Part shown: positions 34,220 through 36,054 of the stretch, piece by piece | Position numbering within the stretch: the stretch's first letter is position 1 | Layout of the letters: each line of letters opens with the position of its first letter | Assembly (NCBI GenBank): GCA_016211105.1 | Contig: JACQSX010000005.1 | Location: forward strand, 1 to 64,000 | Direction of reading: 5' to 3' | Length of the DNA stretch: 64,000 nucleotides | Source of the DNA: Acidobacteriota bacterium | GTDB lineage: Bacteria; Acidobacteriota; UBA6911; JACQSX01 | Made by a program: the position numbers and the translations under genes | Notes under the pieces: generated by a model | Told to the model about the DNA's origin: nothing | Seen by the model: only the letters and a program-made list of their open reading frames with translations | The model's database searches: none

Positions 34220-34663
34220 ATGGAAAACGTGGAAAACTCCCGACGCGGCGTCACACTGTTCCTTCTATGGAGCGGATTTGGAGCCTTGGTGGTCTCGGTG
34301 CTCTACCCGATCGTTCGTTATCTGGTCCCACCCAAGATCGGTGGGCCCACGATTTCCAGCGTCCCGATTCCGTGGAAGCCGGCTGAAATCAAGGCCAATT
34401 CTGGAAGGTTGTTCAAATTTGGAAGCCGGCCCGGCCTTCTGATCAAGACGCCGGCGGGAGAGCTGCGAGCATTCGGCGCGACCTGCACTCACCTAAATTG
34501 TACCGTCCAGTATCGCGAGGAGAAACAAGACATCTGGTGCGCTTGCCACAATGGGATCTACGATCTGAACGGCAAGAATATCAGCGGGCCGCCGCCACGC
34601 CCGCTGGAAGCGTACAAGGTGAACGTCAGAGGAGAACAGATGATCGTGAGCAAGGGAGTCTAA
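34220..34663 (+). CDS. petC: Rieske iron-sulphur subunit of a cytochrome bc complex
   Basis: The 147-residue protein begins with NSRRGVTLF and one membrane anchor, the form of an uncleaved twin-arginine anchor. The Rieske cluster motifs are CTHLNC and CACHNG. It oxidises quinol at the outer face of the membrane together with the cytochrome b encoded downstream. ATG 34220 is chosen over a TTG at 34214. The stop codon is followed directly by a MITE. Confidence 0.92.
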   Translation: MENVENSRRGVTLFLLWSGFGALVVSVLYPIVRYLVPPKIGGPTISSVPIPWKPAEIKANSGRLFKFGSRPGLLIKTPAGELRAFGATCTHLNCTVQYREEKQDIWCACHNGIYDLNGKNISGPPPRPLEAYKVNVRGEQMIVSKGV

Positions 34664-34939
34664 GTACCTCGATTCATAAATACGGTAACGTTTGCTGATG
34701 GGACTTGCGAGGCGAGATCCAGGAGCGAGGAGGAGGCGATGCAACAAGGGACATCGGTGACGACGACCGACGCCGAGACCGCCCGCAACCCCCATCAGCC
34801 CGAAGGGTTGCGGTGGGATGGCCCCGCTTTCTTTGTCGCTCCTCCTCGCCAATGGGCCCCGCATTGACTCGTCGTCGCTTCGCGAAATCAGGCCCATCGC
34901 GCTCGCAACAAACGTTATCGTATTTATGAATCGAGGTAC
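34664..34939. mobile_element. 276-bp MITE with IS630-like terminal inverted repeats
   Basis: The ends are inverted repeats of about 30 bp: the left arm begins GTACCTCGATTCATAAATAC at 34664 and the right arm is its reverse complement ending at 34939, with one mismatch (GGTAACG versus GATAACG). The inner motif TACGGTAACGT is a variant of the TACGGTGACGTA seen at the IS630 remnants. A CTAA (or TA) direct repeat flanks it, as expected for IS630-type insertion. Inside is a hairpin CGCAACCC/GGGTTGCG. There is no transposase. It fills the whole space between petC and the cytochrome b gene. Confidence 0.85.
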
Positions 34940-34944
34940 TAAGG

Positions 34945-36054
34945 ATGGCACAAAGCCGGCGCGCACGGGCGCATCGAGTCCAAGTTCTGAAAAATTGGTT
35001 GGACCAGCGGATTGATCTTGCTGGGATGAGGCAGTTTGTGGAACACAAGGTGGTCCCGGTCCACCGACATACCGTCTGGTACTACTTCGGTGGAATGACA
35101 CTGTTTCTTTTTATCGTTCAGGTCCTGACTGGAATCTTGCTGCTGCTTTACTACCAACCCAGTGCCGAGCAGGCCTTCGAGAGCGTTCAGTTCATCATGA
35201 CCCAGGTTGAGTTCGGGTGGTTGATTCGGTCCATCCATGGTTGGTCGGCCAATCTGTTGATCGCGACGATGATGATCCACCTGTTTAGCGTCTACTTCAC
35301 CCGTGCATACCGGAAGCCGCGCGAACTGACATGGATCAGCGGTGTCCTCCTTCTCGGGATCATGCTGCTTTTCGGCTTTAGTGGGTATCTGCTGCCATGG
35401 AATGAACTCTCCTATTTCGCTACCAAGGTGGGAACCGACTTGGTAGCACAGCTACCGGTGATTGGGCCCACCGTCGGCAGAATCCTGCGCGGCGGCGATG
35501 AAGTCACAGGGGCAACGCTGTCGCGATTCTACGGCATTCATGTGGCGCTCCTGCCGTTGCTCACAACGGGCATTCTAGGAGTACACGTCTTTCTGGTGCA
35601 AAAGCAGGGGATGAGTGCGCCGCTTGACATCGAGCGCGGCGGGCGACCCGTTCGAACCATGCCCTTCTTTCCCAACTTTCTGCTCCGGGATTTGGTAGGC
35701 TGGCTCTCCGCCCTGGCGGTCCTGGCAGCGTTGGCGGCCTACTCCCCTTGGGATTTAGGTTCCAAAGCCGATCCGTTTGCGGCCGCTCCCGCCGGGATTC
35801 AGCCCGAATGGTATTTCGTGTTTATGTTTCAAACGCTGAAGTATATCCCAGCCAAGATCGTCTGGATTGACGGGGAGATCCTTGGGGTGGTCGTCTTCAG
35901 TTTGGTAGGCCTATGGCTGTGGTTGGTGCCATTCCTGGATCACAAAGCGGCTCGGGGAGAAGACAGTCCGCTGTTCTTTTGGATCGGGGTGAGCGCGCTG
36001 GCTTATATTTTGATCTTCAGCATCTTGGGTTACGTAGCGCCTGGGGGGAAGTAA
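34945..36054 (+). CDS. petB: Cytochrome b subunit of a bc complex (full-length fusion)
   Basis: The 369-residue membrane protein joins the N-terminal haem-binding half and the C-terminal half. Haem histidines lie in [10 protein letters not shown] plus MIHLFSVYF and in [10 protein letters not shown] plus GVHVFLV. YLLPWNE and the quinol-site motif PEWYF (in [11 protein letters not shown]) are present. It should oxidise menaquinol with the Rieske protein. The ATG begins 5 bp after the MITE, so the GAGG in the MITE end may serve as its ribosome site. Confidence 0.93.

Follow-up and report, generated by a model that had tools for sequence, protein, structure and literature searches.

What becomes of two adjacent genes when 276 bp of repeat DNA come to lie exactly between them? 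In the 64,000-nucleotide stretch of DNA analysed here (the window), a MITE-like mobile repeat occupies positions 34664-34939, between petC and petB. An earlier note on this DNA had claimed that the element follows the petC stop codon with no gap and ends 5 bp before the petB ATG, and that petC, petB and the cytochrome gene are intact. All of this is borne out by the sequence. petC (34220-34663, + strand) is an open reading frame for the Rieske iron-sulphur subunit (PF00355 Rieske, E 5.8e-11) and its last codon adjoins the element with a gap of 0 bp. On the other side, the element is followed by TAAGG and then by the ATG of petB at 34945. petB (34945-36054, + strand) encodes an intact cytochrome b subunit of 369 amino acids (PF00033, E 7.9e-53), and the multihaem cytochrome gene downstream of petB is likewise intact.

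The left end of the element at 34664 reads GTACCTCGATTCATAAATAC, and the right end at 34939 is the reverse complement of GTACCTCGATTCATAAATAC. Terminal inverted repeats of 29 bp (34664-34692 and 34911-34939) enclose two inner arms, A (34694-34799) and B (34807-34909), which are the arms of a three-way junction according to the consensus fold of 22 copies and pair counts over 38 copies. The 276 bp contain no transposase gene, the internal open reading frames being short, and copies of the element differ by indels with lengths that are not multiples of three. The triplet TAA is found on both sides (+ strand). Its left copy, at 34661-34663, is the petC stop codon; its right copy is located at 34940-34942.

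The earlier note had proposed a search for empty petC-petB sites in relatives. petC was detectable in 77 of 80 relatives, one of which (L135) was unreadable, with a stop call that ran past petB, leaving 76 informative junctions. An insert of such size is present in none of the 76, and the largest gap between the petC stop and the petB match is 99 nt. In L059-L062, which are the four nearest relatives to have petC upstream, the G-rich petC end is followed directly by stop-GG-ATG, the junction reading petC-TGA-GG-ATG-petB with a single copy of the stop. Deletion of the element together with one TAA restores the spacing of this junction, and the empty sites thereby support a target-site duplication of TAA at petC-petB. 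The same 276 bp were looked for at petC-petB in unrelated genomes and were not seen, which agrees with an insertion rather than a conserved element. Empty sites were taken from other petB relatives because the nine relatives that bear the element contain only distant petB homologues (34-42 % identity, in six of the nine).

The genome search for further copies, also proposed earlier, was productive. The host genome comprises 3.5 Mb in 52 contigs and is incomplete. A 20-bp end pattern, allowing up to 3 mismatches, matches it 59 times, compared to 0 times for the reversed control pattern. The 59 ends pair into 39 elements, 20 of them with both ends among the matches and 19 with one. Fourteen copies, including the one at petC-petB, are near full length (78-100 % identity), and many shorter copies are present. 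Two 26-bp palindromes (L174:3001-3026 and L187:3667-3692) consist of two fused repeat ends and nothing else. One of the two sits 4 bp after a leuD-like gene, and a truncated copy of the element is found 12 bp before a leuD-like gene, the name being our reading of the gene's sequence. Outside the host, the full element is matched in 17 of 60 relatives searched. A 35-bp end pattern is present in 8 genomes out of 38 from the class, the host counted. Plasmid and phage collections yielded 0 matches to the element.

At most ends, the flanking bases are CTNA (left side) and TNAG (right side). In the host genome, 23 elements have both ends visible; read by eye, nine carry an identical TNA on both sides, while the triplet differs in 14. 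Sixteen elements read TNA on both sides, and nine of these have the same middle base, against about 5.5 expected by our own arithmetic. This agreement of the flanks weakly supports a clean 3-bp target duplication as a putative trait of the host's elements.

Very probably, a non-autonomous DNA transposon (MITE) inserted at a CTNAG site overlapping the petC stop and duplicated the central TNA, with petB coupled through a GAGGT hidden in a hairpin. Insertion into this target would have been a reaction of the cut-and-paste type, with a DDE transposase acting in trans. The petC stop would have survived because the target overlaps it and TNA is duplicated. This anatomy predicts the survival of both genes: the duplicated triplet is itself a stop codon, and the end of the repeat carries a presumed ribosome site in a position where the terminating ribosome would expose it.

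CTNAG always contains TAA or TGA on one strand, and it is conceivable that the family actively targets stop codons, with operon-friendly insertion as its strategy. The stop codon of a gene is overlapped by 11 of the 39 elements in the host genome, compared to 12 of 85 permissible CTNAG sites (p 0.016, binomial; p 0.055, Fisher), which leans in this direction. Against it, only 2 of 17 measurable copies in relatives (of 20 fetched, 3 had no clear pair) overlap a stop codon, matching the 14 % background, and selection against insertions elsewhere accounts for a mild excess. Active targeting is not upheld and in our estimate improbable. We conclude that the elements are tolerated at stop codons but do not aim for them.

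A second insertion (C7:63717; L170:3001-3189) lies between the gene for a protoglobin histidine kinase and that for a response regulator. Its right end gives GAGGTACTAAGGC-ATG, the same ribosome-site geometry as at petC-petB. The histidine kinase now stops at a TAA within the left repeat, which supplies its C-terminal residues. We infer that the junction was an ATGA overlap before the insertion. This putative ancestral state is deduced from the host's own sequence, because the best foreign matches to the pair are at most 44 % identical, and no empty site or ancestral junction was seen among them.

How is petB translated behind the element? GGGAG in the last petC codons (34654-34658, + strand), the presumed original petB ribosome site by the sequence and by comparison with L059-L062, is displaced by the insert to more than 270 nt from petB. 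The right repeat ends in CGAGGTAC, which places GAGGT (34933-34937, + strand), the presumed new ribosome site, 7 nt before the petB ATG. The GAGG within it (34933-34936) is 8 nt from the ATG, as the earlier note had approximately stated. Of 186 called genes with starts picked blind to the ribosome site, 42 have GAGG upstream and 46 have GGAG, compared to 15 and 13, respectively, in a control stretch. The 16S 3' end, which holds the anti-SD, was sought in the incomplete host genome and not found.

The predicted RNA fold of the element has an energy of -140.9 kcal/mol (z -8.45), and 0 of 200 shuffles are as stable. In the predicted RNA the two terminal repeats pair, and GAGGT lies in the base of the resulting long hairpin. 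Opening of GAGGT in the folded insert is predicted to cost 12.3 kcal/mol, compared to 2.0 kcal/mol for GGGAG in the empty site. The insertion could still be neutral, petB being translated from GAGGT at the old rate and the hairpin being irrelevant in the cell; GAGGT is at a normal spacing, and GAGG is a common ribosome site in this genome. Two features tell against neutrality, namely the high stability of the predicted fold and the position of the petC end exactly at the element, so that no translating ribosome keeps the element open. We regard a neutral insertion as unlikely, although it deserves consideration.

Coupling through the hairpin-hidden GAGGT would proceed as follows. In the petC-petB mRNA, the terminal repeats would pair and hide GAGGT. 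By terminating at the petC stop, a ribosome would cover the 5' arm and free GAGGT, and petB would stay coupled to petC. With a ribosome covering 9, 12 or 15 nt, counted from the first base of the petC stop, the predicted opening cost falls to 2.9, 0.7 and 0.7 kcal/mol, respectively. As a second route, an RNase III cut in the 29-bp stem could also free GAGGT; the predicted cost in the 3' fragment after such a cut is 1.4 kcal/mol, and an RNase III gene is present in the host genome (241.9 bits). Since the opening cost is lower with a terminating ribosome or a cut stem, petB should depend on petC translation or RNase III, and we infer from these folding models that petB would be translated mainly by coupling to petC or after RNase III cutting.

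An altered petC:petB ratio, which the earlier note had suggested, is a plausible outcome of the insertion. The same outcome could arise at transcription if the element were a partial terminator or attenuator that lowers petB relative to petC, with no gating of translation. Two weak terminator-like sites are present on the + strand at 34805-34828, inside the element; over both strands of a 1-kb stretch 4 such sites are counted, where shuffles average 1.1 (sd 1.1), and several elements sit directly downstream of gene ends. These sites, however, are without a solid T run and are located in the middle of the element, and petC and petB encode subunits of one respiratory complex, a pair that has been kept despite the insert. 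Attenuation thus seems rather unlikely to us. Under the coupling that we prefer, petB output would probably shift to a modest degree, and we expect the insertion to be tolerated and not adaptive.

The fold itself is conserved across the family. The consensus of 22 copies is a three-way junction with 76 pairs, 24 of which show a change of both partners in one copy or more. Across 38 copies, pairing is retained for 96.0 % of inner-arm pairs, and in the 29-bp terminal stem 95.1 % of pair cells are paired. Pairs changed on both sides number 16 in the terminal stem and 13 in the inner arms, for which shuffles average 6.6, none of 500 reaching 13, and slid versions do not exceed 8. Such counts are inflated by kinship among the copies. 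The alignment leaves out the rows of L013, which has an internal deletion, and later also L051.

When selection acts on the RNA of one strand, G-T pairs are expected to outnumber A-C mismatches. In the terminal stem the two are equally frequent (44:44); in the inner arms the ratio of G-T to A-C is 47:27, with a single column pair contributing 13 of the 47 G-T. RNA-level conservation of the fold is therefore not upheld: since the mismatches are near strand-symmetric, the constraint on the fold looks like one that acts on the DNA. Suggested candidate causes are a transposase binding both ends, cruciform or single-strand folding, and palindrome correction in replication. Because these counts give no sign of RNA-level selection, the coupling of petB to petC would be a by-product.

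The same observations bear on whether the element could instead belong to the petC-petB operon as a conserved regulatory RNA and never have inserted. The strong fold and the covarying inner arms are what such an RNA would offer. Yet the element is absent from petC-petB in all 76 informative relatives, it has many copies at unrelated places, its covariation is close to strand-symmetric, and a search of 4227 Rfam families up to E 1 found no match. We consider a regulatory RNA highly improbable and retain the insertion of a mobile element as the explanation.

Elements from another family of the class and from another class of the phylum have terminal repeats that are nearly unrelated to those in the window. 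Between the window element and six of these (L039, L042, L043, L054, L055 and L058), identity is 34 % in the terminal helix, compared to 79 % and 63 % in the arms. The terminal helix of the six is still paired, with 204 of 219 cells Watson-Crick. The six were picked for their core match, so that the conservation of the arms is partly built in; this does not apply to the ends, which are replaced and yet paired. When up to 2 mismatches are allowed, one other end type has 80 matches in G025 and 72 in G055, whereas the control gives 3 and 2. Within the host genome, a 177-bp element (L202:2984-3160) contains part of the same core with other ends, of the AGTGTCGC type, and has CTAG at one flank.

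A conserved folded core with replaced ends raises the question of the purpose of the core. Tentatively, and with considerable doubt, we propose that several classes of one phylum share a family in which the three-way-junction DNA core is functional and the ends have been re-matched to different transposases. Ends with a stop facing inward and a ribosome site facing outward would allow entry into operons and the replacement of direct coupling by hairpin-gated coupling, as proposed for petC-petB. If this is true, the core would be recognised by a transposase or by the host, and a terminal helix of about 30 bp would have been swapped and yet remained paired.

The autonomous parent was sought in several ways. 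No end pair is spaced 0.8-3 kb apart in the host genome, and no autonomous element for either end type was recognised among the relatives listed. Searches with PF01609, PF13751 and PF13586 (DDE_Tnp_1, DDE_Tnp_1_6 and DDE_Tnp_1_2) returned no locus with the element's ends. In one relative, close to the end of a contig, a copy of the element adjoins a fragment of a broken DDE_Tnp_1 transposase (L215:1238-1509). The host genome encodes a DDE_Tnp_1 transposase at L222:1107-3100, with CTAG at both ends, which recalls the CTNAG target of the element, and with repeats that differ from the element's.

Among known systems, DDE_Tnp_1-type IS elements (IS4, IS5 and IS1634 groups) resemble the petC-petB element in their short symmetric target (TNA or CTAG-like), and the transposase locus L222 of the host likewise has CTAG at both ends; they differ in that no transposase with the ends of the petC-petB element was found. 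Chen et al. 2008 reportedly described the Chunjie MITE of Geobacter uraniireducens in an operon whose structure it does not disturb. According to PMC10969869, Chunjie is 178-235 bp long. It is similar in length, in an operon insertion that leaves the structure undisturbed and in its tens of copies, while the host differs; the likeness is one of description.

ERIC of Yersinia (De Gregorio et al. 2005) is described in PMC2229807 and PMC10969869 as a co-transcribed palindromic MITE at gene 3' ends, for which the ribosome is proposed to alter the RNA fold and expose an RNase E site (PMC2229807). Both systems thus invoke a ribosome that refolds the RNA and exposes a site within the element. In ERIC, the RNase E site destabilises the upstream mRNA, whereas at petC-petB the site proposed to be exposed is the ribosome site of the following gene; as described, the elements also differ in length (PMC2229807). 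In Correia/NEMIS of Neisseria, RNase III cuts the paired terminal repeats in the mRNA, according to PMC10969869. The likeness lies in a MITE with paired terminal repeats in mRNA and in RNase III cutting. As described in PMC2229807, these elements differ in length (107/155 bp) and in having TA at their termini. Among the papers listed by our literature search, we recognised no report on MITEs in NC10/Methylomirabilota and none on operon coupling by MITEs. MITE insertion within an operon is a known kind of event; new here are the anatomy that preserves the stop and supplies a ribosome site, and a family that swaps its ends.
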